A stretch of 64,000 nucleotides of DNA, taken from contig CANMWT010000002.1 of the NCBI GenBank assembly GCA_947501635.1, positions 62,001 to 126,000 on the forward strand, read 5' to 3'. Made by a program: the position numbers and the translations under genes. Every line of letters starts with the position of its first letter. Position 1 is the first letter of the stretch. Of the stretch, positions 27,784-56,791 are shown piece by piece. The DNA is from an uncultured Roseobacter sp. Lineage in GTDB: Bacteria; Pseudomonadota; Alphaproteobacteria; Rhodobacterales; Rhodobacteraceae. The notes under the pieces were generated by a model that saw nothing but the letters and a program-made list of their open reading frames with translations, made no database searches and was not told where the DNA came from.

Positions 27784-27797
27784 TTGATCAAAATCAC
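27784..27797. promoter_or_regulatory. FNR/FixK-like box upstream of the YraQ-type permease
   Basis: TTGATCAAAATCAC matches TTGAT-N4-ATCAA with one mismatch in the right half. Its centre is about 74 bases before the GTG start at 27865, compatible with activation of the permease and thioredoxin-like genes. It is among the weaker boxes in the window. Confidence 0.45.
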
Positions 27798-27864
27798 TTG
27801 GCCACCTGTCCCGCAAGATAAACTGCCATGACCGGTACCGCTTGGGTTGGAAGGAAAAAAGACA

Positions 27865-28875
27865 GTGGGCGATCTTTTGGTTTGGCTGAACGACCAGTTG
27901 CTGAGAATGCAGTGGTTGTCAGATCTGGTAACATGGGCCTTGCAGGACGTACTCGGGTTTGACATGTCAGATCGCCTTGCCGGTGCTCTGCATTTTTTCA
28001 TTTATGACATCATCAAAATTTTCATCCTGCTCTCCGTATTGATTTTTTCGATCTCCTACGTGCAAAGCTATTTCCCGCCAGAGCGCACACGGCGCATTTT
28101 GGGCCGAAGGCAAGGTTGGGCAACCAACATACTGGCTGCCTTGCTGGGGACGATCACGCCCTTTTGCTCTTGCTCGTCGATCCCGCTGTTTATTGGGTTT
28201 ACCAGCGCTGGTTTGCCGCTTGCGGTAACGTTCTCGTTTCTGATCTCCTCGCCGCTGGTCGACCTTGCGTCGGTCATCTTGCTCGCCAGTATTTTCAACT
28301 GGAGCATTGCACTGACCTACGTTTTGGTCGGGCTTGTTCTTGCGGTGTTGGGGGGCACCTTGATCGGGCGCCTCAAACTTGAAAGTCAGGTTGAATCCTT
28401 CGTGTTCCAAAGCCCGGTTGGCGATCACGACAATAATGGCCAGACCAGCCGCCGAGAGCGGTGCGCTTATGCGCGCGCACAGGTCAGCGAGATTGTGCAC
28501 CGGGTATGGCTGTATGTCGTTCTGGGCGTGGGGATCGGGGCCGCCATTCACAACTGGATACCCCAGGCGTTCATTTCTGCCGCTTTGGGTCAGGACAGGT
28601 GGTGGTCGGTGTTTGTGGCTACAGTGTCTGGAATACCCATGTACGCGGACATCTTTGGAACGCTGCCAATTGCCGAAGCTCTGGTGCTCAAGGATGTCGG
28701 GGTTGGCACGGCGCTGGCGTTCATGATGTCTGTTACGGCTTTGTCTTTGCCATCCATGATTATGCTAAAGCGCGTGGTTAAACTGCCGTTGCTGTGCGTT
28801 TTTATCGGTATTGTCGCCTCTGGTATTGTCGCGATCGGATATCTTTTTAATTACGCTGCCCCACTTCTGATCTGA
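27865..28875 (+). CDS. Permease of the YraQ/UPF0718 (DUF318) family
   Basis: The 336-residue protein has about eight to ten membrane helices. It carries the family hallmark TPFCSCSSIPLFIGF followed by TSAGLPLAVTFSFLISSPLV, with a CSC cluster inside the membrane, repeated later as SGIPMYADIFGTLPIAEAL. Such permeases are found with thioredoxin-like partners in arsenic, sulfur and thiol-related operons. I chose the GTG at 27865 because AAGGA lies at the right distance; the frame opens at a TTG at 27847. The next gene, 14 bases on, encodes a CKKC thioredoxin-like protein. Substrate is unknown. Confidence 0.87.
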   Translation: MGDLLVWLNDQLLRMQWLSDLVTWALQDVLGFDMSDRLAGALHFFIYDIIKIFILLSVLIFSISYVQSYFPPERTRRILGRRQGWATNILAALLGTITPFCSCSSIPLFIGFTSAGLPLAVTFSFLISSPLVDLASVILLASIFNWSIALTYVLVGLVLAVLGGTLIGRLKLESQVESFVFQSPVGDHDNNGQTSRRERCAYARAQVSEIVHRVWLYVVLGVGIGAAIHNWIPQAFISAALGQDRWWSVFVATVSGIPMYADIFGTLPIAEALVLKDVGVGTALAFMMSVTALSLPSMIMLKRVVKLPLLCVFIGIVASGIVAIGYLFNYAAPLLI

Positions 28876-28889
28876 GATGGAGACTGACT

Positions 28890-29126
28890 ATGAACATTAA
28901 AATTCTGGGTTCCGGATGTAAAAAATGTATCGCACTGGGTGACAATGCGCAGGTCGCCGCTCAGGAGATTGGGGTTGAATTTGACATCGAAAAGGTAACG
29001 GATGTCGTCGCTATTGCCGGGTATGGGATCATGTCCACGCCGGGCCTTGTGGTGAATGACAAGGTCGTGTCGTCGGGTCGTGTGCTGACACCGGCTCAGA
29101 TCAAGGAAATTCTTCTCGCAGCGTGA
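28890..29126 (+). CDS. Thioredoxin-like redox-active disulfide protein (CKKC)
   Basis: This 78-residue protein is a single small thioredoxin-fold domain with the active-site pair Cys10 and Cys13 (CKKC) after the first beta strand and a cis-proline region MSTPGLVVNDKVV. It matches the small redox-active disulfide protein 2 family often encoded next to YraQ-type permeases. It is cotranscribed with the permease at 27865 and probably relays electrons to or from its membrane CSC cluster; that link is inference. Confidence 0.9.
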   Translation: MNIKILGSGCKKCIALGDNAQVAAQEIGVEFDIEKVTDVVAIAGYGIMSTPGLVVNDKVVSSGRVLTPAQIKEILLAA

Positions 29127-29174
29127 GTTGCCGCAGGCTTGCCGGCCGTAAGACCTGCGTGCGTTCGCTCAGGC

Positions 29175-29192
29175 GCCTGCGCGCGCGCAGGC
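29175..29192. repeat. 18-bp perfect palindrome in a convergent gap
   Basis: GCCTGCGCGCGCGCAGGC is a perfect palindrome between the convergent thioredoxin-like and YeeE/YedE genes. It may act as a bidirectional transcription barrier, but no T run follows on either side. Confidence 0.65.
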
Positions 29193-29228
29193 TGACGCCA
29201 CAATTCAGAAGCGTAAGGGCCGGGCACT

Positions 29229-29660
29229 TCACGCAGGTTTTTTTGCAGCTGAGAACTCCAGCACAGCTCTTGTGGCCAGAATACCGGTGATAAGTGCGGC
29301 GACGAAGACGATAACGCGGCTGTCCAGCGTTCCTAACGCGGGCAAGGCGCCCCCCGGACAGAACCCGGCAATGCCCCAACCGACACCAAAAATGCCTGAA
29401 CCCGCGATCAGGCGCAGGTCGAGTTCGCGGTTTGAGGGAAGATCGAACTTTGGTTCGAAAACCGGTGCCGCGCGGCGAAAGACCAACCGGTACCCGATGA
29501 ACGTGGTAACAAGCGCCCCGCCCATCACGAAGGCAAGGCTTGGCTCCCACGTGCCCGCGATATCAAAGAAATTGATTACTTTGGCGGGGTTGGCCATCCC
29601 GGAAAAGACAATACCGGTGCCAAAAACCGCGCCGACCAGAAAGGTAAGAAAACTGCGCAT
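29229..29660 (-). CDS. YeeE/YedE family sulfur transport protein (half 2)
   Basis: The 143-residue protein has about four membrane helices and the family motif GSGIFGVGWGIAGFCPGGAL with a cysteine in a GFCPG turn. The YeeE/YedE (DUF395) family imports thiosulfate or related sulfur species through conserved cysteines. It is the last of three tightly packed genes (gaps of three bases) after a DUF2892 protein and the other YeeE half, so the functional unit is probably a two-subunit transporter. Confidence 0.88.
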   Translation of the reverse strand: MRSFLTFLVGAVFGTGIVFSGMANPAKVINFFDIAGTWEPSLAFVMGGALVTTFIGYRLVFRRAAPVFEPKFDLPSNRELDLRLIAGSGIFGVGWGIAGFCPGGALPALGTLDSRVIVFVAALITGILATRAVLEFSAAKKPA

Positions 29661-29663
29661 CTC

Positions 29664-30095
29664 TCAGGCTCCCAGAATGTGTCGTAGGACGTATACAGTC
29701 AGCCCGGTGGTAAGCATGAACGTCCCGGTTGCAGCGAACGACCGCGGCGACAGGCGCGCCATGCCGCAGACGCCGTGCCCGGATGTGCAGCCACTGCCAA
29801 GGGTCACGCCAACGCCCACGAGCAATCCGCCAACCATCAGCATCAGTATTCCGGCGGGTACATCAATTACCGGCATCTCGCGTGTGACGGCGAAATAGAC
29901 CCATGGTCCGGTTACCATGCCGCAGAGCAGTGCCACCCGCCATATCCAGTCCTGCAGGCTAGCGGGCAAGAGCACGCCGGCCAATACACCAGTAGCCCCC
30001 ATGATCCGGCCCCGCAGCAGCATCAACCCAACTGCTGCCAGCCCGATCAGAACGCCACCGAAAAGTGAGGCAAAAGGAGTGAATTCAGTGACCAT
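29664..30095 (-). CDS. YeeE/YedE family sulfur transport protein (half 1)
   Basis: The 143-residue protein has about four membrane helices and the signature LGSGCTSGHGVCGMARLSPR with two cysteines, diagnostic for YeeE/YedE half-transporters. It is followed after three bases by the other half. The gene order DUF2892, YeeE half, YeeE half, preceded by a Crp/Fnr-type regulator, suggests a sulfur compound transporter under redox or oxygen control. Confidence 0.9.
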   Translation of the reverse strand: MVTEFTPFASLFGGVLIGLAAVGLMLLRGRIMGATGVLAGVLLPASLQDWIWRVALLCGMVTGPWVYFAVTREMPVIDVPAGILMLMVGGLLVGVGVTLGSGCTSGHGVCGMARLSPRSFAATGTFMLTTGLTVYVLRHILGA

Positions 30096-30098
30096 GGT

Positions 30099-30311
30099 TC
30101 ACAGCTTGCAAGTTGAAAGGCCTAAAATCCGGTACAGCGGGCAGAACCGGAAGAGAGCGGTCAGGAGCAATATGCCGCCGATTGCCATGCTGGCGTAAAC
30201 CAGCGCAGCGCCAGACCATATGGCAGGAATATTCAGAAGCGGTGCAACAATCAGTATAAGCCCCAGAAGGCCTCTGGTCAGTCGGTCGGGATGTCCAAGA
30301 TTGGGGGTCAT
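30099..30311 (-). CDS. DUF2892 (YgaP-like) small membrane protein
   Basis: The 70-residue protein has two membrane helices (LTRGLLGLILIVAPLLNIPA and YASMAIGGILLLTALFRFCP) with an N-terminal RLTRGLLG and the FCPLY motif, as in the DUF2892 domain at the membrane end of YgaP-type rhodaneses. It is the first gene of the three-gene YeeE unit. The cysteine in FCPLY may take part in sulfur transfer, but this is inference. Confidence 0.85.
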   Translation of the reverse strand: MTPNLGHPDRLTRGLLGLILIVAPLLNIPAIWSGAALVYASMAIGGILLLTALFRFCPLYRILGLSTCKL

Positions 30312-30395
30312 GCGGTATCCTTTCAGTTATCACGAGGTTTTATGCCGCAAAGCGCTTGGCGCGTCCGTGATTAAGTCACAGTGATCCACGGGGGA

Positions 30396-31064
30396 TCATG
30401 GAGATTGCGCCAATCGCCCGATGGCCGCAGTGTCACGCAGGCGAATTTCCCCCCTGCTGAGGGTTAACCACCCACGCCGTTCAAATTCTTTCAGCTGTCG
30501 AGAGATCACTTCGCGCGCGGTTCCAAGCTCGATTGCCATTTGCTGATGCGTTAAAAGCAACGTGCTTTCCTCGCCTTTCAGTTCAAGCAGCTTTTGCGCC
30601 ACGCGCACGTCCATACGTTTGAACGCAATTTCCTCAATCACCAGAAACAGCTCGGTTATCCGCTTGGAGTAGGCTTCGAAGACAAAGGCGCGGAATTCCT
30701 TGGAGGCGGCCATCATGTCGTCAAAGGCGTCGCGTGGGATCAGGATCGCTTCGATGTCAGTTTCAGCGATGCCTTCGGCCGAATAGTTTTCGAATGCCAA
30801 AAGACAGGCCGTGGTCAGAACGCAGCTTTCACCGGCATGAACGCGGTACAACACGATCTCGCGCCCGGCTTCGGAAAGCTGTTGAACTCGCACAACACCT
30901 GAAACCAGAAGCAGAAGGTTTTCAGCCGGTTTACCTGGGCCAAAAATCTGCGCGTCCTTGTCAATGGAAATGTGCCGGGACCGCTTGTCCAACAGGTCGG
31001 ACACCGCGGGGGACAGACCGGATAGCCCGGGAAAACTCTGTCTCCATGTTAACTGTTTTAGCAT
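30396..31064 (-). CDS. Crp/Fnr family regulator, near sulfur transport genes
   Basis: The 222-residue protein has a cyclic-nucleotide-binding-like sensor domain (DKDAQIFGPGKPAENLLLLV) and a C-terminal helix-turn-helix (LTHQQMAIELGTAREVISRQ followed by LKEFERRGW). It lacks the N-terminal cysteine cluster of FNR, so it should not hold an FNR-type iron-sulfur centre; two cysteines (CVLTTAC) lie in the sensor domain. I chose the ATG at 31064 after AAAGGA; the frame opens at 31154. It lies 84 bases upstream of the DUF2892-YeeE genes and shares a gap with an FNR-like box with the flavodoxin-like gene. Confidence 0.9.
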   Translation of the reverse strand: MLKQLTWRQSFPGLSGLSPAVSDLLDKRSRHISIDKDAQIFGPGKPAENLLLLVSGVVRVQQLSEAGREIVLYRVHAGESCVLTTACLLAFENYSAEGIAETDIEAILIPRDAFDDMMAASKEFRAFVFEAYSKRITELFLVIEEIAFKRMDVRVAQKLLELKGEESTLLLTHQQMAIELGTAREVISRQLKEFERRGWLTLSRGEIRLRDTAAIGRLAQSP

Positions 31065-31115: not shown

Positions 31116-31129
31116 TTGATTTTTGTCAA
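31116..31129. promoter_or_regulatory. FNR/FixK box between Crp/Fnr and flavodoxin-like genes
   Basis: TTGATTTTTGTCAA has both half-sites of the TTGAT-N4-ATCAA pattern with one mismatch. It lies about 58 bases from each of the two divergent starts (31064 and 31182), so it could control both. Confidence 0.75.
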
Positions 31130-31181: not shown

Positions 31182-31691
31182 ATGGAAAAAACATGCGCTA
31201 CAGCCGTCGTTTTTTATTCACGATCAGGGCATTCCCGGCGGCTTGCAAAACGATTATGCGAGGCTTTGAACGGCACGCTCCTGGAGGTGAAAGCCCCCGC
31301 CTACGAAAGTGGAATGTTTGGTATCCCGCGCGCGGTTTTTGATAGCCTCATGCAGCGTGACATGCGTGGCGCCCATCAGTTCCCATCCGTCGCGGCTTAT
31401 GAACGTGTCGTAGTTTGCGGACCAGTGTGGACCTCATATCCCGCCGTGCCCTTGCGCGGTTTTCTGCATCAGCAGCCCAAGACCCCCGAGACCGTAGATT
31501 TATTGCTAACCTGCATGGATCACGCGTCTGCCGAGAAGGCCTTTAAGGTTGCCGAGGCAGATTTGGGCCGGCCGTTCAAGGTGTCGCGGTGTCTGGTCAA
31601 TACGGCAGAAGGCTCCGACGAGGAAGAGCGCATCCTCGCGGAGTTTCTGGATGCACGCCAAGTTGCGGGCACAAAACTGCAGATGAATTGA
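31182..31691 (+). CDS. Flavodoxin-like protein
   Basis: The 169-residue protein begins with a flavodoxin-type first strand and FMN phosphate loop, VVFYSRSGHSRRLAKRLCEA, and continues with VVVCGPVWTSYPAVPLRGFL, where W and Y could stack on the flavin. It resembles flavodoxin/WrbA-like proteins that carry electrons or reduce quinones. I chose the ATG at 31182 with AAAGG nine bases upstream; the ATG at 31173 is an alternative. It is divergent from a Crp/Fnr regulator, with a FNR-type box in the gap, suggesting oxygen-responsive expression. Confidence 0.8.
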   Translation: MEKTCATAVVFYSRSGHSRRLAKRLCEALNGTLLEVKAPAYESGMFGIPRAVFDSLMQRDMRGAHQFPSVAAYERVVVCGPVWTSYPAVPLRGFLHQQPKTPETVDLLLTCMDHASAEKAFKVAEADLGRPFKVSRCLVNTAEGSDEEERILAEFLDARQVAGTKLQMN

Positions 31692-31748
31692 GATCAGTCA
31701 ACCGGATCATACGCCCAAGGGATAAGCGTTGTTCAGACAGAAAAGGTA

Positions 31749-31973
31749 TTGGCCCCAATGCGTTTCAAAACGAACGGGATACGTAGCGCCGGGATGACCG
31801 GAGGCACCAAGGCTTGCGCCATGCTCGCAAGGGTTTGTGGGGTGGAGCGCAAAGATATGGCCAAGTTCTTTCTGACCACCTTGCCAGAAGGTCAAATGAT
31901 GGTATTCGATTTGCTTGTGGATGGCGCGGCCAAAAATTCGGCCGTTGCCTCGGCGCGGCGGTACTCTGCATGA
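31749..31973 (+). CDS. Small hypothetical protein coupled to phaC
   Basis: A 74-residue frame (MAPMRFKTNGIRSAGMTGGT at the start, KDMAKFFLTTLPEGQMMVFD in the middle) ends at a TGA that overlaps the phaC ATG as ATGA at 31970-31973. That arrangement is what translational coupling would give, and the codon use looks coding. I recognise no family, and the alternative is that this is simply phaC leader sequence. A start further downstream, such as the ATG at 31758, is possible. Confidence 0.4.
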   Translation: MAPMRFKTNGIRSAGMTGGTKACAMLARVCGVERKDMAKFFLTTLPEGQMMVFDLLVDGAAKNSAVASARRYSA

Positions 31974-33622
31974 CCGGGTCAAAGCCGAAATCGCGGGGGC
32001 TGGACACCCAATGGCATGCCGCTTTGGCGCAATTGACAGGTGGCATTTCACCGACGGCCGTCGCCACGGCCTATGTCGATTGGGGGTTGCACCTGTTCGG
32101 GTCGCCTCAAAAGCAGTCTGAACTTTTAAAAGTCGCGTTGCAGGAGGCCGTTGCCCCGCAAGAACGCCATGACCCGAGATTCGAAGATCCCGCCTGGTCT
32201 GCATATCCTTACAATGTTCTGGCCCAAAACTTTCTGGCGGCGCAGAACTGGTGGGATGTTGCGACCAGGGACTTGCCCGGCGTGGACCCCAAACACGCCC
32301 AGATCGTCAATTTCGCGGCCCGGCAGTGGATGGATATGCTTTGTCCCGCAAACTTTGCATTGACCAACCCTTTGGTGCAGGACCGCACGCAGAAAGAGCA
32401 GGGGCAGAACCTGGTCAGAGGCGTTCGCTACTGGATCGACGATTTCAACCGTCTGTTGTCAAAGCAGCCCCGTCGGTCGGAAAAGTTCACAGTGGGCAAG
32501 GAGTTGGCGACCACCCCGGGCGACGTTGTGCTGCGGAATGATTTGGTGGAACTGATCAGATACCATCCCACAACCGCCCGCCTGCACCCCGAGCCCATCC
32601 TGATCGTGCCGGCCTGGATCATGAAGTATTACATATTGGATTTGACCGCCCAAAGATCGTTGGTTGCATATCTGCGGGATCAGGGGTTTGAAGTTTTCAT
32701 CCTGTCGTGGAAAAACCCGGAGGCACAGGACGCGGAACTGACCCTTCAGGACTACATTGATCTGGGGATACGTGCTGCAATCGCCAAGATGCAATCCATG
32801 GGGCACCCCCGGCTGCACGCCGCGGGATATTGCCTTGGCGGCACTTTGCTCGCGATTGTGGCTGCTGCATTGGCGCGAGACCGCGACGACTGTTTGGCCA
32901 GTGTCAGCCTGCTTGCAGCGCAGGTCGACTTTTCAGAGCCCGGCGAACTCAGTCTGTTTATCAACGAAAGCCAGGTGGCATTTCTCGAAGATATCATGGC
33001 CACCAACGGATATCTGAAATCTGATCAGATGGCCGGTGCATTCCAGTTGCTGCGTTCAAATGACCTTATCTGGAGCCGCGTGATACGCCACTATCTGCTG
33101 GGCGAACGCACGCGAGACAACCCCCTCATGGCGTGGAATGCGGATGCCACGCGCATGCCGGCCCGGATGCACAGCGAATACCTGCGTCATCTGTTTCTTA
33201 ACAATGACTTGGCAAAGGGTCGGTTCCGGGTGGATGGTGCTGCCGTAGCGTTGAGCGATATTCGAAACGATATCTACTGTGTTGCAACCGAGACTGACCA
33301 CGTTTCTCCGTGGACTTCAGTTTTCCGGCTTTCTTTGCTGACGGATACAGACGTCACTTTCATACTGACCAATGGCGGCCACAACGGCGGCATCTTGTCA
33401 GAGCCGGGGCACAAGGGGCGGCATTTTCGCTACGGGCACAAGAAGGAAGGAGACGGGCATGTTACGGCAGCCGATTGGTTTGAGCGGCATCATCCGGTAT
33501 CAGGCTCGTGGTGGCCGCATTGGTCAAAATGGCTCAAAAAAAGGAGCGGGCATCCTCAGAACACCCGCTCGTCACTTGTTACATCACTGGACGCGGCGCC
33601 GGGGCGCTACGTCTTACAATAG
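31970..33622 (+). CDS. phaC: Class I poly(3-hydroxyalkanoate) synthase
   Basis: The 550-residue protein matches class I PHA synthases: AQNFLAAQNWWDVATRDLPG in the N-terminal domain, the lipase-like box GYCLGG with the catalytic cysteine at about residue 287, the catalytic aspartate in ETDHVSPW and histidine in TNGGHNGG near the C terminus. It polymerises 3-hydroxyacyl-CoA into PHA granules. The open frame starts at 31814 but normal family length and the ATGA overlap support 31970. It is tail-to-tail with a phasin gene two bases away. Confidence 0.94.
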   Translation: MTGSKPKSRGLDTQWHAALAQLTGGISPTAVATAYVDWGLHLFGSPQKQSELLKVALQEAVAPQERHDPRFEDPAWSAYPYNVLAQNFLAAQNWWDVATRDLPGVDPKHAQIVNFAARQWMDMLCPANFALTNPLVQDRTQKEQGQNLVRGVRYWIDDFNRLLSKQPRRSEKFTVGKELATTPGDVVLRNDLVELIRYHPTTARLHPEPILIVPAWIMKYYILDLTAQRSLVAYLRDQGFEVFILSWKNPEAQDAELTLQDYIDLGIRAAIAKMQSMGHPRLHAAGYCLGGTLLAIVAAALARDRDDCLASVSLLAAQVDFSEPGELSLFINESQVAFLEDIMATNGYLKSDQMAGAFQLLRSNDLIWSRVIRHYLLGERTRDNPLMAWNADATRMPARMHSEYLRHLFLNNDLAKGRFRVDGAAVALSDIRNDIYCVATETDHVSPWTSVFRLSLLTDTDVTFILTNGGHNGGILSEPGHKGRHFRYGHKKEGDGHVTAADWFERHHPVSGSWWPHWSKWLKKRSGHPQNTRSSLVTSLDAAPGRYVLQ

Positions 33623-33624
33623 CC

Positions 33625-33978
33625 CTACTTTGCTTTTTCGTCGGACGGCGTGGCAAAGGCCTCTGTGCCCATTTTGATCAGCTTTCCGGTCTCTGCCTGA
33701 TATTGGTCCATCGCCTTATGGATGAATTCCGCCTGAATGTTCTGCAAATCAGCAACATTCTTGCAGTGTAGAATCTGGTGCTGTGTTTTTACGTCCTCTT
33801 TGAGCCGTTCAGCTACAAAACTCGCGACTTCCGCACCCATGCTGCTGATGGTTTCCAGCCAGATGGTGCTCATACTCATCATGTTTCCCAGACCTGCCTC
33901 TTGCAGGTGGGCAATAGTATTCAACGTGTCATGGCTTTTCGGGCCCGTCGCATCTTGCTGTTGTGGTTTGTTGGCCAT
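33625..33978 (-). CDS. Phasin family protein
   Basis: The 117-residue protein begins MANKPQQQDATGPKSHD and forms one long amphipathic helical region (MSTIWLETISSMGAEVASFV followed by AERLKEDVKTQHQILHC, then LQNIQAEFIHKAMDQYQAET), as in phasins that coat PHA granules. The ATG at 33978 has GGAGGACC before it; the frame extends to 34242 without support. It is convergent with phaC and divergent from the P-type ATPase gene, with an FNR-type box between the latter two. Confidence 0.85.
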   Translation of the reverse strand: MANKPQQQDATGPKSHDTLNTIAHLQEAGLGNMMSMSTIWLETISSMGAEVASFVAERLKEDVKTQHQILHCKNVADLQNIQAEFIHKAMDQYQAETGKLIKMGTEAFATPSDEKAK

Positions 33979-34039
33979 TACTGGTCCTCCGGTTTTGCGC
34001 AGTTGCACCATCATTTTAAAGAGCTTCTGTTCTGCCGGG

Positions 34040-34053
34040 TTGATTTTGCTCAA
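34040..34053. promoter_or_regulatory. FNR/FixK box between phasin and P-type ATPase genes
   Basis: TTGATTTTGCTCAA matches TTGAT-N4-ATCAA with one mismatch. Its centre is about 68 and 66 bases from the divergent starts at 33978 and 34113, suiting control of both. Confidence 0.75.
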
Positions 34054-34112
34054 TGTGGTGAACCAATTGCATCGGATACCAGCAGTCAGGGTTTCAATGT
34101 GAGGTCGCCGTC

Positions 34113-37744: not shown

Positions 37745-37758
37745 TTGATCTCGCTCAA
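37745..37758. promoter_or_regulatory. FNR/FixK box upstream of the CaCA antiporter
   Basis: TTGATCTCGCTCAA lies inside the perfect inverted repeat GAGTTGA-N6-TCAACTC (37743-37760... centre about 40 bases before the antiporter ATG on the minus strand). It is a near-consensus box. Confidence 0.75.
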
Positions 37759-46600: not shown

Positions 46601-46903
46601 CTATGTTTGCGCCTCGTATTGCGCCAGACGGCGGAGTACGGCGTCTCGCTCTTCCAGCAACTCAAGCACAAGTGCAACGCCTGCGGTATTGATGCCCAAA
46701 TCACGGTTCAAGCGCCGCGCCTTTTTTGCGCGCACGATGTTGGTGCCGACAAACTGCCAGTTGAGAGGCTGACCGCCGATCGGGCTCAGCACACCGTGCT
46801 CAACCAGCTCTATTACCCAGGCTTCATCGGCCTGACAAAACTGGCAAAGATCCTTCAGTGAAAGAGCGTCTACGACTTCGACGCTTTTCGTCGACTTTTT
46901 CAT
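46601..46903 (-). CDS. cbpM: CbpM-type chaperone modulator
   Basis: The 100-residue protein begins MKKSTKSVEVVDALSLKDLC and has the MerR-like fold of CbpM: CQADEAWVIELVEHGVLSPI followed by GG, then NIVRAKKARRLNRDLGINTA and GVALVLELLEERDAVLRRL. CbpM binds the J domain of CbpA and inhibits its co-chaperone and DNA-binding activity. It begins ten bases after the cbpA-like gene with a strong GGAGG ribosome site. The annotated upstream extension of this frame lies within cbpA and is not real. Confidence 0.88.
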   Translation of the reverse strand: MKKSTKSVEVVDALSLKDLCQFCQADEAWVIELVEHGVLSPIGGQPLNWQFVGTNIVRAKKARRLNRDLGINTAGVALVLELLEERDAVLRRLAQYEAQT

Positions 46904-46913
46904 GGCTGGCCTC

Positions 46914-47834: not shown

Positions 47835-47894
47835 CCGCTTCTCACTTGCGCCAAATTGCTTGCTTCACAATGCCATCCACAAACTGCGCGCCGG

Positions 47895-47908
47895 TTGATT
47901 TTTGTCAG
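47895..47908. promoter_or_regulatory. FNR/FixK box between cbpA and a Usp gene
   Basis: TTGATTTTTGTCAG matches the pattern with two mismatches in the right half-site; it is close to the box at 31116. It lies about 67 and 89 bases from the divergent starts at 47834 and 47991. Confidence 0.6.
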
Positions 47909-47990
47909 TCGAGCTGTGGCCAGCGGTGCCAATATGCATGCCAGCGATCCGGTCAGCAGACACCGGGTGCACCCTGGACCGGAGATCCCC

Positions 47991-49240: not shown

Positions 49241-51010
49241 TCAGCGCTGCGGGGCAACCGGTGGCGGATCCCGCTCCGGCTGCCGCAACGCCTGAAACGC
49301 ATCGTATTGTGACAAATACACGTCGCCAGTCAAACGGTCGAGCAAATGGCACCGGCCCAGCCTGTCCATCACCGGGCCTTTGACTTCTGACAGGGAAAGA
49401 TCAATCCCCATCTCTGCAAGGCGCATGTTGATTGCTTCAAGCGTTTCCAGCGCACTCAGGTCTATTTCATTGACTGCGGAACACATCAGCACGACATGCT
49501 TTATCGCTTTGTCGTCGATCACGCGGTCATAAACGTAATCTTCCAGAAAACGTGCATTTGCAAAGTAAAGGCTCTGGTCGATCCTCAAGCCAAGCACCGT
49601 CGGATCGGTAATCACCGCATGACGGTGGATATTGCGAAAATGCTCTGATCCGGGCACCAAACCGACTTCAGCCACATGCGGACGGGACGTATCATACAAA
49701 AACAAAAGTATAGAAAACACGACGCCTGCCGTGACACCCAACTCGACCCCAAGGAAGAGGGTGAGCAGAATCGTGCTGAGAACGGCTCCGAAGTCGCGTT
49801 TGGAATAAGACCAACTGTGACGCAGCGTCTGAACATCGACCAGCGACAGCACGGCGACAATGATGGTCGCCGCCAGGGTCGCTTTGGGCAGAAAGTAGAT
49901 CAGTGGTGTCAGGAACAGCGCTGCGATCGCCAGCGCAACTGCCGTAAAAGCGCCCGCCGCAGGCGTTTCGGCGCCTGCGTCGAAATTCACGACCGAACGC
50001 GAAAACCCACCGGTCACGGGAAAGCCGCCGGTTATCGCGGCACCGACATTTGCAGCCCCCAGTCCGATAAGTTCCTGATCGGGGTCGATGCGCTGCCGCC
50101 GTTTGGCGGCCAGCGTCTGAGCGACCGAGATGGACTCTACAAAACCGATGATGGAGATCAGCAAAGCCGGTACAAAAAGCGCTGACACCAGTTCAATGGA
50201 CATGTCTGGCAGGGTCAGCGGCGGCAGGCTTTGGGGCACCGCTCCGACGATTTGAACGCCTTTTTCATCCAAGCCAAACTGCCAGACAGCAACAGTTGTG
50301 GCCACCACGGCCACTACCGGACCCGCCTTGGCCAGAAAATCTGCAGCGCCTGCGCGCAGCCCGATACCAATGAGGGCAGGGCGCAATCCCGTGCGGACCC
50401 AGAACAAAAAGCCTATTGCTGCCGCTCCTATCGCCAGTGTCAGCAGGTCTGCCGCCGGCAGATGCCGCGCAAGAGACCCGAGCATTTCGATCAAGGTGTG
50501 ACCATGTGCTTCAATGCCAAGGATGTGCCGCAACTGGCTTATCGCGATCAAGATGCCCGAGGCCGTGATAAAGCCAGAGATGACGGGGTGGGACAGAAAA
50601 TTTGCGATAAAGCCCAACCGCAGGATACCCATTGCGATCAGCATGACACCGGAGAGTGCTGCAAGGCTCAGTGCGGCGGTGGCATAACCGACATTGAGCG
50701 TCGCGGTTACCTCTCCGATGCTGGCCGCCGTCATCAGGGAAACTACGGCAACCGGCCCGACAGCCAGTGAGCGGCTGGTGCCAAAGAGGCTGTAGAGCAA
50801 GATCGGCAGGATCGAGGCATAAAGGCCGGCTTCGGGCGGCAACCCTGCCAGCATCGCATAGGCCAGAGACTGCGGTATCAGCATGATGGTCACGATCAGC
50901 GCGGCAATCCCGTCGTTCAGCGCGGTTTTCCGGCTATAGCTGCGCCCCCATTCAAGAATGGGTACAAAGCGACGCCAGGTCGATCCATTTCGCGCTTTCG
51001 ACTGCACCAC
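49241..51010 (-). CDS. SulP family anion transporter with STAS domain
   Basis: The protein of about 589 residues has the SulP signature near its start (DGIAALIVTIMLIPQSLAYA followed by MLAGLPPEAGLYASILP), about 10-12 membrane helices and a C-terminal STAS domain (GLRIDQSLYFANARFLEDYV, HVVLMCSAVNEIDLSALETL). SulP proteins move sulfate, bicarbonate or other anions. I placed the start at GTG 51010, directly after the stop of the upstream gene; a GTG at 51052 would overlap that gene and lies too close to its ribosome site. As last gene of a sulfide-oxidation operon, sulfate or sulfite transport is likely. Confidence 0.9.
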   Translation of the reverse strand: MVQSKARNGSTWRRFVPILEWGRSYSRKTALNDGIAALIVTIMLIPQSLAYAMLAGLPPEAGLYASILPILLYSLFGTSRSLAVGPVAVVSLMTAASIGEVTATLNVGYATAALSLAALSGVMLIAMGILRLGFIANFLSHPVISGFITASGILIAISQLRHILGIEAHGHTLIEMLGSLARHLPAADLLTLAIGAAAIGFLFWVRTGLRPALIGIGLRAGAADFLAKAGPVVAVVATTVAVWQFGLDEKGVQIVGAVPQSLPPLTLPDMSIELVSALFVPALLISIIGFVESISVAQTLAAKRRQRIDPDQELIGLGAANVGAAITGGFPVTGGFSRSVVNFDAGAETPAAGAFTAVALAIAALFLTPLIYFLPKATLAATIIVAVLSLVDVQTLRHSWSYSKRDFGAVLSTILLTLFLGVELGVTAGVVFSILLFLYDTSRPHVAEVGLVPGSEHFRNIHRHAVITDPTVLGLRIDQSLYFANARFLEDYVYDRVIDDKAIKHVVLMCSAVNEIDLSALETLEAINMRLAEMGIDLSLSEVKGPVMDRLGRCHLLDRLTGDVYLSQYDAFQALRQPERDPPPVAPQR

Positions 51011-51011
51011 T

Positions 51012-52685
51012 TTAACGGGCTGACAGTTTCTCGGGCGCGGCAAGCCACTCACGCCCTTTCAGCATCGCTTGCCAATACACCGGCGGCAGTATCTTTTCTT
51101 TCAACAGCCACGCCAGTCGGCTTGGTTGCGTACCGTCGATCAACCATCGCGGAAAGCTGGGCTGCAAGGTGCCACCATAGCCGAACTCGGCCAGAATGAT
51201 CTTGCCCCGCTCCACCGTCAGGGGGCAAGAACCGTAGCCGTCATATTGCGCCACGGGTGCGCCGCCCTTGATGTCGGCGATGATGTTGTCGGCCACGACA
51301 GGTGCTTGTTTGCGCGCTGCCGCGGCGGTTTTCGCATTCGGGGCATTCATCACGTCACCCAATGACCATATGTTATCAAAGGTCTTGTGCCGCAGTGTCG
51401 CCTGATCGACATCAACCCAGCCCGCAGCATCAGCAAGTGGGGACACGGCGATAAAATCCGGTGCGCATTGCGGTGGCGTAACATGCATCATATCGAACGC
51501 GACTTCGATGCGCTCTACCGCTTTGTCCGGCCTTGACACGTCAAACCAAGCTTTGCGCGCAGGACCGTCGACCGCGACCAGATTGTGAAAGAAATTCAAC
51601 CCGATGTGATACTTATCAATGTATTTCTCCAACGCGGGCACATAGTCTTTGACACCGAATAGGACACCTCCGGCGTTGTGAAACTGGATGTCGATATCCT
51701 CGATTGCGTGGGTCCGGGTCCAATGATCCGCCGACAGGTAGATCGCTTTTTGCGGCGCGCCCGCGCATTTGATTGGCATCGGCGGCTGGGTAAAAACCGC
51801 GCGGCCGGATCTCATACGAGAGACCAGCTCCCATGTGTAGGGTGCCATGTCGTAGCGGTAGTTCGACGTCACGCCGTTGCGCCCAAGCGTGTCGACCAAC
51901 CCCTCGATCCGACCCCAATCCAGTTTGAGCCCCGGGCAAACCACCAGACGCCCGTATTTGACCACGCGGCACCCATCCAGAATGACGGCATCCTGTTCAG
52001 GTTCGAAAGCAGCCGCAGCTGATTTCAACCAACGAACGGATTTCGGGATCAAAGAGCCCATGGTCCGGACTGTGTCTTCCGCCTCAAAAACACCGCCACC
52101 TACCATGGTCCAGCCCGGTTGGTAGTAATGCGCCTCGGCGGGATCAATGACGGCAATCTCCAGTTCCGGCTTGCGTGCCTTGAGGCTGGATGCGACAGCG
52201 ATCCCGGATGCGCCCCCGCCCACGATCACGATATCATAGGTGGCATCCGCCTGCGCCGTCGGGGTCTTGCCGCCATTGGCGATACGGCGGACAACCCCTT
52301 TCATGTCATAGCCCGCTTTCTTGGTCGCGCTCAGGATTTCCGCCAGCGGCAATGACTTGGCCTGCGCGAGCGACCAAAGTGTCGCCGACCGAGTGCCTGT
52401 TCGGCAATAGGCAAGGATCGGCTTGGGTAAAGTATCAAGTGCGTGCTTGAATGCCTGCGCATCCGCGTCCTGCACAATCCCGCCAGAGACTGGTATATAC
52501 CGCATTTCAAGGCCGAGTTTCTCTGCAGTATGCGCCAGTTCCCGGAAGGTCGGTTGATCCGCGCCTTCACCATCGGGCCGGTTACAAATGATAGAGGCAA
52601 TCCCCTTCTCTCGCAGGGCGGCCAGATTTGTTTCGGAAATCTGCGCGGCCACAAAGAATTGTTCGGCGATCTGCTTCATATCCAT
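51012..52685 (-). CDS. Sulfide:quinone oxidoreductase fused to an N-terminal DUF442 phosphatase-like domain
   Basis: The 557-residue protein has two parts. Residues 1-110 are a DUF442 (TIGR01244-type) tyrosine-phosphatase-like domain with a CRTGTRS active-site loop at Cys94, which is also a rhodanese-like persulfide site. From about 150 an FAD-binding oxidoreductase begins (DIVIVGGGASGIAVASSLKA) and carries MPIKCAGAPQKAIYLS, the catalytic-cysteine motif of eukaryotic-type sulfide:quinone oxidoreductases (SQOR). The fused enzyme would oxidise sulfide to persulfide and pass electrons to quinone. It lies between the persulfide dioxygenase and SulP genes. Confidence 0.9.
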   Translation of the reverse strand: MDMKQIAEQFFVAAQISETNLAALREKGIASIICNRPDGEGADQPTFRELAHTAEKLGLEMRYIPVSGGIVQDADAQAFKHALDTLPKPILAYCRTGTRSATLWSLAQAKSLPLAEILSATKKAGYDMKGVVRRIANGGKTPTAQADATYDIVIVGGGASGIAVASSLKARKPELEIAVIDPAEAHYYQPGWTMVGGGVFEAEDTVRTMGSLIPKSVRWLKSAAAAFEPEQDAVILDGCRVVKYGRLVVCPGLKLDWGRIEGLVDTLGRNGVTSNYRYDMAPYTWELVSRMRSGRAVFTQPPMPIKCAGAPQKAIYLSADHWTRTHAIEDIDIQFHNAGGVLFGVKDYVPALEKYIDKYHIGLNFFHNLVAVDGPARKAWFDVSRPDKAVERIEVAFDMMHVTPPQCAPDFIAVSPLADAAGWVDVDQATLRHKTFDNIWSLGDVMNAPNAKTAAAARKQAPVVADNIIADIKGGAPVAQYDGYGSCPLTVERGKIILAEFGYGGTLQPSFPRWLIDGTQPSRLAWLLKEKILPPVYWQAMLKGREWLAAPEKLSAR

Positions 52686-52710
52686 AGCGACGTCTCCTGT
52701 AGGGATGGTT

Positions 52711-53595
52711 TCAGATCGCGTTGACCGGGACCTTGAGCATCGGTTTGCCGTCTTCGGTCTTTGGGACTTCTCCGGCCCGCATGTTGACCTGCAAAGACGG
52801 CAAGATCAGTTTCGGCACATCAAGCGTCGCATCGCGGGCTTCGCGGTTCTTTATGAATTCATCTCTGGTTTGCCCTTGTCCGACATGAATGTTTTCGGCC
52901 TTTTCCTCAGCGACAGTGGTTTCCCACATGATGTCCCGGCCCCCCGGTCCATAGTCGTGACACATAAACAGCCGCATATCGTCAGGCAGGGACAACACTT
53001 TTTGAATACTGTCATAAAGTTCGCCTGCATCCCCACCTGGAAAGTCTGCACGCGCAGAGCCGCCATCAGGCATAAAAAGCGTGTCGCCAACAAATGCGGC
53101 ATCCCCGACAACATGCACCATACACGCGGGTGTGTGGCCCGGCGTGTGTATTGCAAAGGCGTTCAGCCCGCCAATTGAATAGGTGTCTCCATCCTTGAAC
53201 AAACGGTCGAACTGCGACCCGTCGCGCTGGAACTCCGTTCCTTCGTTAAAGACTTTGCCGAAGGTGTCCTGCACAACGGTGATCTGATCGCCGATGCCGA
53301 TTTTTCCACCCAATCTGGATTGGATATAGGGGGCGGCGGACAGGTGATCGGCATGGACGTGGGTTTCGATCAGCCACTCAAGCCTGAGCTTGTGCTTTTC
53401 GATATAGGCTATGATCTCATTCGCATGCTCAAAGGTGATGCGACCAGCCGCGTAATTCAGATCCATCACGGAGTCGATAACAGCACAGGCGTTGGATTTC
53501 TGGTCTGTGACCACATAACTGATCGTATTGGTCAACGGATCGAAAAAGGGCTCAACAGCGGGGTGCATATCCATATTTACGGGGTAGTCAGACAT
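52711..53595 (-). CDS. Metallo-beta-lactamase fold persulfide dioxygenase (ETHE1/BLH type)
   Basis: The 294-residue protein starts MSDYPVNMDMHPAVEPFFDP, typical of the Blh/ETHE1 persulfide dioxygenase group, and has the metal motif THVHADH (78-84) plus later histidine HTPGHTPACM and D in AFVGDTLFMPDGG. The enzyme oxidises glutathione persulfide to sulfite. The ATG at 53595 follows GGAG; the frame extends to 54261 through another gene's region and is rejected upstream. It begins the operon with the SQOR fusion and SulP. Confidence 0.93.
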   Translation of the reverse strand: MSDYPVNMDMHPAVEPFFDPLTNTISYVVTDQKSNACAVIDSVMDLNYAAGRITFEHANEIIAYIEKHKLRLEWLIETHVHADHLSAAPYIQSRLGGKIGIGDQITVVQDTFGKVFNEGTEFQRDGSQFDRLFKDGDTYSIGGLNAFAIHTPGHTPACMVHVVGDAAFVGDTLFMPDGGSARADFPGGDAGELYDSIQKVLSLPDDMRLFMCHDYGPGGRDIMWETTVAEEKAENIHVGQGQTRDEFIKNREARDATLDVPKLILPSLQVNMRAGEVPKTEDGKPMLKVPVNAI

Positions 53596-53651
53596 AGAAA
53601 TCTCCATTGGTAACTTAGGTGTCAGGTTACGTCGGTGCTGCGTTGGTGTCT

Positions 53652-53731: not shown

Positions 53732-53941
53732 TCAGACCGGGAAAGTGCCGTTATCAGACGGATCGGAGGCCGGTTCTTCTGCCGGAGCGTCCGGTTCAGG
53801 TACTTCCGGGGCGGTCGCTGGTGCGTCGGGGTCCGTCGGCTGCGGCAGTTCCGGCGTGGCGGGCGAATGCATGGGGTCTTTTGGCATCGGGGCTTCTTGC
53901 GGTGGTTCGGACCCGGATGAATGTGGTTTCTGCATAGCCAT
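53732..53941 (-). CDS. Small proline-rich acidic protein
   Basis: The 69-residue protein (MAMQKPHSSGSEPPQEAPMP at the start, PDAPATAPEVPEPDAPAEEP later) is dominated by proline, glutamate, aspartate and alanine and should be disordered. AAAGGACAG precedes the ATG and an FNR-type box is centred about 60 bases upstream, which argues that it is a real expressed gene. No family or function is recognised; it has no signal peptide or membrane segment. Confidence 0.6.
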   Translation of the reverse strand: MAMQKPHSSGSEPPQEAPMPKDPMHSPATPELPQPTDPDAPATAPEVPEPDAPAEEPASDPSDNGTFPV

Positions 53942-53994: not shown

Positions 53995-54008
53995 TTGATC
54001 CGTGTCAA
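53995..54008. promoter_or_regulatory. FNR/FixK box upstream of the proline-rich protein
   Basis: TTGATCCGTGTCAA has a consensus left half and one mismatch on the right. It lies inside the perfect GATTGA-N6-TCAATC palindrome (53993-54010) and is centred about 60 bases before the ATG at 53941. Confidence 0.8.
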
Positions 54009-54068: not shown

Positions 54069-54803
54069 TTAAAGGGGCTCTGTCACTTGCCGGCCCCACC
54101 AGCTGGTTGTGGAAACAGTCCGCCTGACCAGCGGGCTCAGCCCGATCAACAAGATCGCAATGGAAAACAAGCACCAGATCGCGGGCATCTCGTTGGGGTT
54201 GGTTGTAAGGCTTGTCGCCAGCATCGGCCCCGCCACAGCGTGTACGAGCACAAAGCGCCATGCGCCATAGGCCAAAGGCACAAGGAAAGCCACGACCATG
54301 TAGCTGGGAAATCCGGGGTAGGTGCCCATCGCCCGTTCCAGCGGCAGCAAAAGCCCGTTGTATGGTACATCCCAGGCGATGTGCCAGTCACCAGAAACCG
54401 TACACCAGTCCGCGCTGCATAGTGGGCTGCCCGGGCGGCAGGGGCCGGCGAAAGCAAGCGGCGCGATCTGCGCCAGCATGATCAGGCTGGAGAGGGCACA
54501 GGCAGCAAAAACCCAGACCTTCACCCGTCGTTTGACACCGGCAGGCACCAGTTCCATCGCAAACGCATTGATAAAGAAAGGCTGGATCGCAATATGCAGG
54601 TAGGAAAGCACCGTGACGCTTTTGTTAGAGCCCGTACCGCATTGATCGAGCACCATGTACCCCCAGACCTGCAGCGCCTCCATGAGGGTGAAAAACCCCA
54701 GTGTCGACCAGATGGCCGGCGCGCTGCCCTGTCGATACGTCACGACAGTTGCAACTGCGCCCAATCCGGTCATTGCAACCGATGCTTCCACGCTCCAGCA
54801 CAT
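54069..54803 (-). CDS. Multi-pass membrane protein of unknown function
   Basis: The 244-residue protein has about seven membrane helices. It begins MCWSVEASVAMTGLGAVATV, has YLHIAIQPFFINAFAMEL in the middle, and a periplasmic or cytoplasmic loop with three cysteines (CRPGSPLCSADWCTVSGDWH). It resembles uncharacterised seven-helix proteins of the DUF5765 kind, as far as I can recall; no enzyme motif is evident. A near-perfect FNR-type box lies about 55 bases upstream. The cysteine-rich loop and oxygen-type control hint at a redox or metal function, which is inference. Confidence 0.75.
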   Translation of the reverse strand: MCWSVEASVAMTGLGAVATVVTYRQGSAPAIWSTLGFFTLMEALQVWGYMVLDQCGTGSNKSVTVLSYLHIAIQPFFINAFAMELVPAGVKRRVKVWVFAACALSSLIMLAQIAPLAFAGPCRPGSPLCSADWCTVSGDWHIAWDVPYNGLLLPLERAMGTYPGFPSYMVVAFLVPLAYGAWRFVLVHAVAGPMLATSLTTNPNEMPAIWCLFSIAILLIGLSPLVRRTVSTTSWWGRQVTEPL

Positions 54804-54851
54804 ATGTTTCTCCTTATTATTGAAAGACTAACCAGATGGCCCCGCGCGCGA

Positions 54852-54865
54852 TTGACACGTATCAA
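54852..54865. promoter_or_regulatory. FNR/FixK box upstream of the seven-helix membrane protein
   Basis: TTGACACGTATCAA lies in the perfect palindrome GATTGACACGTATCAATC (54850-54867), about 55 bases before the ATG at 54803. It is the most symmetric box in the window. Confidence 0.85.
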
Positions 54866-54917
54866 TCACAGCACCATCCGACCCGTCCGCTGACAGGCTG
54901 GTGACCCTTTGCGATGA

Positions 54918-54931
54918 TTGACCTGCATCAA
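54918..54931. promoter_or_regulatory. FNR/FixK box upstream of the SpoIIAA-like gene
   Basis: TTGACCTGCATCAA lies inside GATTGA-N6-TCAATC (54916-54933), centred about 63 bases before the GTG at 54988. A degenerate second copy, CTGACGGGGATCAG, follows at 54939-54952. Confidence 0.82.
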
Positions 54932-54987
54932 TCGCGCGCTGACGGGGATCAGTCATGGTTCGAGGGACCTTCAGAAGGAGCCTGAAC

Positions 54988-55395
54988 GTGCTTAACGTAT
55001 CGAAACCAGAAGCAAACCGCCTCGATCTTGAATTTTCAGGACATCTGGATGCAGAGGCTATGCGCCTCGCGATCGACACTCTGGTCGAAAATTCACAAGG
55101 CATTTCAAATGGGAAGATGCTCTACAAGATCCTCGATTTTCAAATGCCGACCATGGCCGCACTCGTGGTTGAATTCCAGCAACTGCCAAAACTGCTGAGC
55201 CTTGTCGGCAAGTTCGACAAATGCGCGGTATTGTCCGATGATGCATGGATCCGAACGGCAGCCGAAATCGAAAGTGCAATCATCCCATCCTGTGAAATCA
55301 AGGCCTTTCCGCTGTCCTCAGCCAAAGCTGCGGAAGACTGGCTGGAAGGTACCGGACGCGAAGACAACGAAGAAGCAGACAACTTCCCAGTGTGA
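54988..55395 (+). CDS. SpoIIAA-like (STAS/SEC14-type) protein
   Basis: The 135-residue protein has a STAS-like alpha/beta order: NRLDLEFSGHLDAEAMRLAI, ISNGKMLYKILDFQMPTMAA, FDKCAVLSDDAWIRTAAEIE and IIPSCEIKAFPLSSAKAAED. Single-domain SpoIIAA-like proteins of this kind are widespread but poorly characterised. I chose the GTG at 54988 with AGAAGGAG upstream; the ATG at 54955 lies before the ribosome site. The gene has a strong FNR-type box and is divergent from the seven-helix membrane protein. Confidence 0.85.
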   Translation: MLNVSKPEANRLDLEFSGHLDAEAMRLAIDTLVENSQGISNGKMLYKILDFQMPTMAALVVEFQQLPKLLSLVGKFDKCAVLSDDAWIRTAAEIESAIIPSCEIKAFPLSSAKAAEDWLEGTGREDNEEADNFPV

Positions 55396-55483
55396 CATCA
55401 GTATGGACCATGGGGCGGGTGTCACCTTGCGAAGTGCTCTGCGCCGCCGTGCCGTTCGGTTGTAGATCGCAGTCCCGGTGTTC

Positions 55484-55759
55484 TTAACTGGATCCGCGCG
55501 CTGCTTCCGGGTGTTCGGCGATAAACCCCCGCAAGACGGCAAACAGCTCTTGTGCATGCGCGACATCGCCAGTGTGCAGAGCCGCGCGAATATCGTCACA
55601 GATCATTTCATTTATCTTCTGAGGGCCGTGATGCTCGTGCATCATGTAGTCGCCCATCAGTGTCGCGTCATAGGTGTCTATATGCTCGTGCTCGGCCAAT
55701 GCCTCAATCTCCGCGCGCGTAAGCGCGGACATGTCTTCAATGTCTTCCAGGGTAATCAT
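55484..55759 (-). CDS. Small acidic histidine-rich hypothetical protein
   Basis: The 91-residue protein starts MITLEDIEDMSALTRAEIEA, then LAEHEHIDTYDATLMGDYMM and HEHHGPQKINEMICDDIRAA. It is helical and rich in glutamate and histidine, with an HEHH cluster that could bind a metal. GGAGGACC precedes the ATG at 55759, and an FNR-type box is centred about 66 bases upstream. I recognise no named family. Function unknown. Confidence 0.75.
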   Translation of the reverse strand: MITLEDIEDMSALTRAEIEALAEHEHIDTYDATLMGDYMMHEHHGPQKINEMICDDIRAALHTGDVAHAQELFAVLRGFIAEHPEAARGSS

Positions 55760-55818
55760 TTTTCGGTCCTCCACGACAAGCAGTCACATTGAGTATAGCG
55801 GTCTGAAAATTGCGGCTC

Positions 55819-55832
55819 TTGACCAAACTCAA
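55819..55832. promoter_or_regulatory. FNR/FixK box upstream of the acidic histidine-rich protein
   Basis: TTGACCAAACTCAA matches TTGAN-N4-NTCAA, about 66 bases before the ATG at 55759 on the minus strand. Confidence 0.7.
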
Positions 55833-55896
55833 TTGAACGCTGGTTTTGTTGTGGCATCGCCTTGACCCATCCCAAAACCTGCGCCCGGTCTGCATT

Positions 55897-56721
55897 TCAG
55901 ATGCGGTGCAGAAAAGGCTCCATATCCAGACGGTAGTCTTCGGCGACGCGAAACAGGGTGTCATTGGGTACTTCATACCAGTCTTCGCCATGTGTGATCG
56001 GCTCTGATGCGATTTCAACCGCCTGATAGCTGCGTTGCGGATCATGGTGCACATGGGGGCGATCGCAGATCGGGCAGTCAAAGATACGGTCACGCAACAG
56101 ATAAAAGAGTGACCGGTTCAAGCGAGAGCCAACCAATTGATCGCCGTCTGTCAGAATGACATTCAACCCGACTGGCGCATCCGTGTCGACGTCCGCGCAC
56201 CAGTGCACGACCTGTGTCAGCCCCGTGCGCAATGTCGTCATCAGCCCCTTTTCAGGATGGCGCAAATAAAGACTGAGCAGATAGCGGAACAAATGTTCGC
56301 TGTCGGTCGTTCCACTGATTTCAGACCGGTGGATCGGATCCATCTGCTCCAGCATAAGGGGACGCACCTGTTCAAAGTTCGGGATCGTTCCATTGTGCGC
56401 GAAAATCCAGCGTCCATGGTCAAAGGGGTGCGTGTTTTCCAGACTGGTGCCACCCACAGTCGCGCGCCGTACATGTGCAACCACAGTCTTGGCATAGACC
56501 CGCGCCGCCGTTTTGGTGAAGTGCTCACCATGAAAAGCCGCCCATACCTGTTTTTCCACCAGCGGCAAGCCATCGGCATAGTCCGCAACGCCCCAGCCAT
56601 GTCCGTTGGCGTATCCTTGCATGTCTTCCTTGCTTTGCACCATGAGCGCGTTTTGAGCTTTGACGAGGCTGCATTCGATCTTGGTCGGTTCGTTGGCGTG
56701 CATTGCATAAAGGCGACACAT
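55897..56721 (-). CDS. Class II glutamine amidotransferase family protein
   Basis: The 274-residue protein starts MCRLYAMHANEPT, so Met removal exposes Cys as an N-terminal nucleophile, as in class II (Ntn) amidotransferases. It continues with GHGWGVADYADGLPLVEKQV, VVAHVRRATVGGTSLENTHP followed by FDHGRWIFAHNGTI, and SEISGTTDSEHLFRYLLSL, all typical of YafJ/EgtC-like GATases. The start was set at ATG 56721 to place Cys at position 2; the frame opens at 56751. It is divergent from an ATP-grasp-like gene, sharing a gap with an FNR-type box. It has no synthetase domain of its own; the partner is unknown. Confidence 0.9.
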   Translation of the reverse strand: MCRLYAMHANEPTKIECSLVKAQNALMVQSKEDMQGYANGHGWGVADYADGLPLVEKQVWAAFHGEHFTKTAARVYAKTVVAHVRRATVGGTSLENTHPFDHGRWIFAHNGTIPNFEQVRPLMLEQMDPIHRSEISGTTDSEHLFRYLLSLYLRHPEKGLMTTLRTGLTQVVHWCADVDTDAPVGLNVILTDGDQLVGSRLNRSLFYLLRDRIFDCPICDRPHVHHDPQRSYQAVEIASEPITHGEDWYEVPNDTLFRVAEDYRLDMEPFLHRI

Positions 56722-56777
56722 TGGCGGGGCTCCGTATTCTTGCTGGGACAAAGAATATCAGCTGGCGGCTCTGCCGA

Positions 56778-56791
56778 CTGATTTTGATCAA
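56778..56791. promoter_or_regulatory. FNR/FixK box between the amidotransferase and ATP-grasp-like genes
   Basis: CTGATTTTGATCAA has a perfect right half and one mismatch in the left. It lies about 63 bases from the start at 56721 and 39 from 56824, the latter matching class II activator spacing only if the transcript start is close to the ATG. Confidence 0.65.

Follow-up and report, generated by a model that had tools for sequence, protein, structure and literature searches.

In Rhizobium, a regulatory cascade has been described in which a hybrid FixL kinase (hFixL) and an OmpR-type response regulator (FxkR) act on fixK; fixK adjoins the regulator gene and is preceded by an FxkR site, the K-box GTTACA-N4-GTTACA, and FixK has anaeroboxes as its sites (passages of PMC7888657 and PMC4999443). 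A comparison of 50 genomes from 2016 places this cascade in Rhizobiaceae and gives Rhodobacterales FnrN only, in the sections available (PMC4999443), and FixK has been called generally restricted to Rhizobiales (a passage of PMC2908626). Among the titles and abstract openings listed in searches of open-access literature, none presents the cascade, or an island under it, for Rhodobacterales; for Nereida ignava, a published passage mentions an annotated fixK gene and nothing more. Here we analyse a window of 64 kb, meaning the whole stretch examined (positions 62,001–126,000 of contig CANMWT010000002.1), from the 4.21 Mb, 65-contig genome of an uncultured Roseobacter sp. Between positions 27784 and 56791 of this window lies an island crowded with FNR/FixK boxes (anaeroboxes) that encodes a relay of the hFixL–FxkR–FixK type. 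We think it likely that this relay commands a low-oxygen persistence island that works as do the lxa locus of Burkholderia and the DosR regulon of Mycobacterium tuberculosis.

The lxa locus, as described in papers that cite it, is a large island with universal stress proteins (Usps), a heat-shock protein and polyhydroxybutyrate genes, raised at low oxygen and tied to anoxic persistence, for which a FixK/Anr-type regulator is suspected. Its likeness to the Roseobacter island is one of annotation only; lxa differs in its roughly 50 genes, its six Usps, its host from another class of Proteobacteria and its suspected regulator, BCAM0049, which is encoded elsewhere. The DosR system, from an unrelated lineage, has a heme-based sensor, and its response regulator acts directly, with no FixK step. 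Usps and alpha-crystallin are shared features on the DosR side, and its part in hypoxic survival would be another (sections of PMC6127331). Closer to the host, the FnrL regulon of Rhodobacterales has the same binding motif as the island and usp genes among its targets, but FnrL senses O2 through an Fe–S cluster and serves mainly respiration, heme and denitrification (parts of PMC5398030 and PMC2908626). The FixK regulon predicted for Bradyrhizobiaceae includes Hsp20, CBS-domain and fixL/fixJ genes and stands under FixLJ, unlike the hFixL–FxkR arrangement here (part of PMC2908626). Because that prediction already puts Hsp20 and CBS proteins under FixK, command of stress genes by FixK is not a new idea; what is new here is the relay, the host group and the island.

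The window contains 14 copies of the exact motif TTGA-N6-TCAA, against a mean of 1.27 and a maximum of 5 in 100 shuffles, and 12 of the 14 fall inside the island, for which the rest of the genome would predict 0.54. The whole genome holds 90 such sites (17 for the reversed-pattern control); when 90 sites were placed at random in 20,000 trials, no 29 kb stretch received more than 8. The stricter form TTGAY-N4-RTCAA gives 34 sites in the genome, six of them in the island (random maximum, 5), and allowing up to one mismatch gives 28 sites in the 29 kb of the island versus 12 in the remaining 35 kb. Among the sites listed for the genome (50 of the 90), the densest 29 kb of contig C1 contains four. 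A crowding of near-consensus FNR/FixK boxes had been proposed by an earlier, sequence-only reading of the window; the comparison with shuffled and genome-wide density that it suggested, run as a pattern scan, bears this out. Chance clustering is ruled out by the shuffles and the random placement. Foreign base composition is likewise rejected, the GC content of the island being within the range of the rest, and a search of the window for known RNA elements and tRNAs found none.

Ten of the 12 exact island sites are intergenic; the site at 40830 lies within the kinase gene and that at 31688–31701 overlaps the end of an open reading frame (ORF) at 31182–31691. Three sites with one mismatch, all intergenic (27784, 47895 and 56778), fill out the set seen by eye. 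The majority stand between divergent genes, as that reading had it, at 30–104 bp from the start codons as placed in our analysis (40–90 bases in that reading), and 31688 is 276 bp before phaC. The further statement that boxes are absent outside the island is literally wrong yet holds for promoter-like sites, because the two exact sites found there overlap coding sequence: 1386 at the start of ORF 761–1399 and 1535 within ORF 1403–3700. These two, in an exopolysaccharide-type chain-length/tyrosine-kinase gene and its neighbour, are probably chance matches. Further exact sites lie 2.9 and 8 kb past the window edge.

Conservation was assessed in 65 named relative loci, all found through the island FixK and labelled with Rhodobacterales genera (Tateyamaria, Sulfitobacter, Roseobacter, Roseovarius and others) or only as Rhodobacteraceae, Paracoccaceae or Alphaproteobacteria, and including one Cohaesibacteraceae metagenome-assembled genome (MAG). 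Across them the motif with spacing 6 occurs 275 times, compared with 7–39 times for each of eight other spacings and four times for the reversed motif. Counting a box within 300 bp upstream of a gene, in testable relatives only, several effector promoters keep theirs. The box at 45065–45078, between the polymer-forming-like gene and hsp20, is kept before the former in 41 of 42 relatives and before the latter in 34 of 35; that at 37793–37806, on the side of the M50-CBS protease gene, in 39 of 43; and its neighbour at 37745–37758, on the Na/Ca exchanger side, in 18 of 19. The box at 34040–34053, between the phasin and Ca-ATPase-like genes, is retained before the latter in 18/23, that at 40104–40117, between the baeRF12-type and kinase genes, before baeRF12 in 17/20, and that at 31116–31129, between the second Crp/Fnr gene and ORF 31182–31691, before the Crp/Fnr gene in 3/3. 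Persulfide dioxygenase (2/2) and usp1 (9/15) follow, the Usp counts being rough because paralogous Usps cross-match.

Boxes are rare at the regulators themselves (fixK, 4/63; response regulator, 1/63) and occur in one of four relatives at DUF5765. None was found in relatives before CbpM (0/4), SulP (0/3), the sulfide:quinone oxidoreductase (SQR) gene (0/1), EgtC (0/2), PreATP-grasp (0/2) or the two YeeE genes (0/1 each); genes downstream in an operon would need no box of their own. As a pattern of sequence, this fits a scheme in which fixK would be driven by the K-box and the target promoters by FixK. The proposal of one coordinated regulon gains support, relatives tending to have the boxes, the effector genes and the regulator in company; it is qualified by a sulfide/persulfide block (49241–53607) within the island, a possible member of the regulon.

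The three components of the relay are contiguous. The hFixL-like kinase (40164–41723, + strand) has PAS, HisKA, HATPase and receiver domains by Pfam, and its PAS domain aligns best with the oxygen-sensing heme PAS domains of FixL. It is 44% identical over 511 residues to a Rhizobium phaseoli hFixL-like protein, of which it is the best match in its genome (438.5 versus 275.1 bits for the next). The heme histidine is kept in 53 of the 56 relatives' kinases compared, and the HisKA histidine (58/58) and the receiver aspartates of kinase (59/59) and regulator (63/63) are invariant. The adjoining response regulator (41690–42460, − strand), OmpR-family by Pfam, outscores every other protein of its genome in matching an R. 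phaseoli protein that we call FxkR-like from position and homology rather than from its record annotation (47% identity; 212.9 versus 158.1 bits). Divergent from it, the FixK-type Crp/Fnr regulator (42636–43310, +) has Bradyrhizobium FixK2 as its best solved relative (4i2o; E = 5.4 × 10−31), keeps the E-V-S-R recognition helix and lacks Fe–S cysteines; over the first 30 aligned residues, all 65 FixK relatives have fewer than three cysteines, with a few of the alignments beginning late. In 62 of the 65 loci the regulator gene is divergent to fixK within 600 bp, and in 58 the kinase is upstream too; the seven without the full arrangement include contig ends and rearrangements. Cys89 of FixK is invariant in the 64 relatives compared and is a possible redox control point.

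A FixK-like regulator and a FixL-like kinase within the island, as first proposed, are both supported. FixLJ as the type of relay is excluded by the OmpR family of the response regulator; the kind is that of rhizobial hFixL–FxkR. A second Crp/Fnr gene, at 30396, had also been pointed to. Its product is not of the FNR/FixK type: its best solved relative is 3dv8, and the Caulobacter FixK model gives it 36.8 bits and the 42636 protein 145.5, both below the model cut-off of 300. The island relay departs from the Rhizobium cascade, which serves fixNOQP, fnrN and symbiosis in the published passages, in having mainly stress, storage and repair genes as its predicted targets, in the single PAS domain of its kinase and in the anaerobox of its own that the kinase gene has in about half of the relatives.

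Upstream of fixK, at 42542–42557 (+), lies the tandem repeat GTTACA-N4-GATACA, one base off the Rhizobium K-box. Two of the 65 loci being too short, the search covered the 190 bp that precede fixK in the other 63. Of these, 56 contain TACA-N6-TACA, which has a single further match in 2.47 Mb of strand and none in the reversed control (0/63), and 30 contain GWTACA-N4-GWTACA. For a six-base repeat with looser first bases, spacing 4 occurs in 42/63 loci and spacing 9 in one, all other spacings from 0 to 13 being empty. With one mismatch allowed, every locus has a K-box (63/63; shuffled mean 7.1; reversed sequence 12). In the Roseobacter genome GWTACA-N4-GWTACA has three matches: 42542 and one each at G000:C4:84654 (L112) and G000:C6:247671 (L113). 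On a 340 kb R. phaseoli plasmid the K-box pattern occurs once, about 86 bp before fixK–hFixL. The best K-box sites in four rhizobial and Terrirubrum regulator–fixK divergent regions are 0, 1, 2 and 2 bases off consensus, and the relaxed pattern has no match in three of these four.

Several observations weigh against an oxygen relay that commands the island through FixK. The 65 relatives are not independent of one another and were retrieved through FixK itself. Only a minority have boxes at usp2 (11/43), usp3 (7/26), cbpA (2/10), phaC (2/8) and DUF2267 (4/37), and the kinase gene is boxed in just 28 of 59. The heme histidine is absent from 3 of 56 kinases, and a partly resolved tree groups the island and FxkR-like regulators apart from others weakly (59/83). 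In a second sample of genomes, 7 of the 10 FixK genomes with the M50-CBS gene have a box no more than 300 bp from it (0/1 elsewhere). FnrL shares the motif and could, from sequence, read the island boxes: two further FNR/FixK-like genes of the FnrL type lie at C1:353098 and C12:22821 of this genome, and the usp genes of D. shibae are FnrL targets (a passage of PMC5398030). The boxes might then be mainly FnrL sites and the island a part of the usual FnrL regulon of Rhodobacterales gathered in one place, with the local FixK adding little.

Co-occurrence with FixK bears on this alternative. When FixK-bearing genomes are defined by a match below 1 × 10−44 (13 of 120 genera; next best match, 3.9 × 10−29), the M50-CBS gene (E up to 1 × 10−50) is found in 10 of the 13 FixK genera versus 1 of the 107 others (Fisher P = 2.6 × 10−11, kinship ignored). 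Homologues of the polymer-forming-like gene are boxed within 200 bp in 7/7 FixK genomes versus 1/9 others (P = 0.0014, kinship ignored), although the homologues outside FixK genomes are more distant, at 29–36% identity, as is one of the seven within (G074); the boxed outsider, G020, lacks FixK and so speaks for FnrL. Total box number does not separate FixK genomes (n = 12, 30–186) from others (n = 28, 12–133), and because the two kinds overlap it is not used as support. Taken with the dedicated relay linked to the island, these sequence comparisons favour FixK over FnrL, and we regard a mainly FnrL-driven island as unlikely. Separately, a looser cluster of five boxes at G000:C1:352936–395605 adjoins the FnrL-type gene C1:353098 and is perhaps a classical FnrL region.

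The signal itself could also be other than oxygen, for example sulfide or persulfide, nitric oxide or the redox state, with oxygen secondary. The island contains a sulfide-oxidation block (49241–53607, −) comprising a SulP permease, a sulfurtransferase–SQR fusion (TIGR01244 with a type III-like SQR) and a persulfide dioxygenase corresponding to that half of Blh. At 29229–31063 stand a YeeE/YedE-type pair, a YgaP-like transmembrane protein (30099–30311) and the non-FixK Crp/Fnr regulator (30396), a possible persulfide or thiosulfate unit. Matches to SulP, SQR or persulfide dioxygenase flank 5 of the 65 relatives (L050, L060, L082, L085 and L086), and L065 has the YeeE/YedE-type pair with the second Crp/Fnr regulator; because related genes recur in these six loci, the linkage of sulfur genes to the island may mean something. 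The boxed persulfide dioxygenase matches and the invariant Cys89 of FixK point the same way. Set against this are the best alignment of the kinase PAS with FixL oxygen-sensing domains, its kept heme histidine and the position of the boxes: 31116 is the sole box in the window close to the sulfide block or the YeeE/YedE–Crp/Fnr unit, none lies near SulP, SQR or the dioxygenase, and SulP and SQR have none in testable relatives. We consider a primary signal other than oxygen very improbable.

We propose that falling O2 would be sensed by the heme-PAS hybrid kinase, which would signal to the FxkR-like regulator; this would bind the predicted K-box at 42542 and turn fixK on. FixK, without an Fe–S cluster of its own, would then bind the anaeroboxes and activate the genes for polyhydroxyalkanoate (PHA) synthase and phasin, the ion pumps, the M50-CBS protease, Usps, Hsp20, CbpA, the polymer-forming-like protein and several small proteins of no known family. 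In many relatives it may also activate the kinase gene, closing a positive loop. The products would maintain non-growing cells through hypoxia. Whether the whole amounts to a portable dormancy island, in which an oxygen relay of rhizobial type has exchanged its role in respiration and symbiosis for one in DosR- or lxa-like persistence, standing beside FnrL, patchy among genera (13/120) and with its core sometimes on plasmids, we judge an even call. If it does, many marine roseobacters hold a second, heme-based oxygen circuit for survival, not respiration, one sensor relay has been rewired to a new gene set, and a dormancy-type regulon can be tested in harmless, culturable bacteria. Tateyamaria pelophila DSM 17270 and Sulfitobacter aestuariivivens are two such bacteria that carry the relay.

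Among 387 genomes sampled at class level, 26 have a FixK match with E up to 1 × 10−38: the Roseobacter genome, two of the same family, one at 77% identity and one at 60%, and 23 of other families (39–46% identical), around which no K-box and no regulator match was found within 2.5–3.6 kb. A 49 kb plasmid of Tropicibacter oceani carries the regulator, fixK and a K-box, the part read containing no match to the kinase, and a plasmid of Sulfitobacter sp. DSM 110093 carries kinase, regulator, fixK, K-box, Usps and cbb3 oxidase genes. Divergent fixK–regulator pairs are also plasmid-borne in Terrirubrum, S. fredii and S. meliloti, where a PAS kinase adjoins them, and in R. leguminosarum. The Cohaesibacteraceae MAG contig (L104, 9 kb) has the whole relay with Hsp20 and a Usp; transfer and binning error are both possible.

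Gene names in the island come from Pfam and NCBIfam matches, and several are family-level only because several NCBIfam scores fall below curated cut-offs. The class I-like PHA synthase gene (31970–33622, +; PhaC_N; TIGR01838 at 497.8 bits, below the cut-off of 622.65) is followed by a phasin ORF (33625–34242, −; Phasin_2 above cut-off), whose true start is probably downstream of 34242. By family match, the next genes encode a P-type Ca-ATPase-like pump (34113–36686, +), a Na/Ca exchanger family protein (36674–37711, −), the M50 membrane protease with a CBS pair (37855–39003, +), a Usp (39134–39595, −) and a baeRF12/Host_attach family protein (39614–40051, −). Beyond fixK lie a DUF2267 gene (43371–43820, −), probably transcribed by read-through from the upstream gene, and the gene for a membrane protein (43823–45004, −) that has no Pfam or NCBIfam match, ‘polymer-forming-like’ being the label of the sequence-only reading. 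Further family matches are Hsp20 (45119–45637, +), a tandem Usp (45657–46547, +), CbpM-like and DnaJ-type CbpA proteins (46601–47834, −) and another Usp (47346–48836, +), whose start is probably near 47979; the one-mismatch box at 47895–47908 lies between cbpA and this last gene, usp3. DUF5765 (−) and SpoIIAA-like (+) genes occupy 54069–55395, with two anaeroboxes between them (54852–54865 and 54918–54931), and an EgtC-like protein is also matched, its gene separated from a PreATP-grasp gene by the one-mismatch box at 56778–56791.

Two small ORFs, both on the − strand, are without a Pfam or NCBIfam family match and sit directly behind anaeroboxes: a proline-rich one of 69 residues (53732–53941), 60 bp from the box at 53995–54008, and one of 96 residues (55484–55774), 51 bp from that at 55819–55832. 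At the opposite end of the island, the one-mismatch box at 27784–27797 (box coordinates throughout are on the + strand) lies 57 bp before an ArsP_1-type permease gene (27847–28875).

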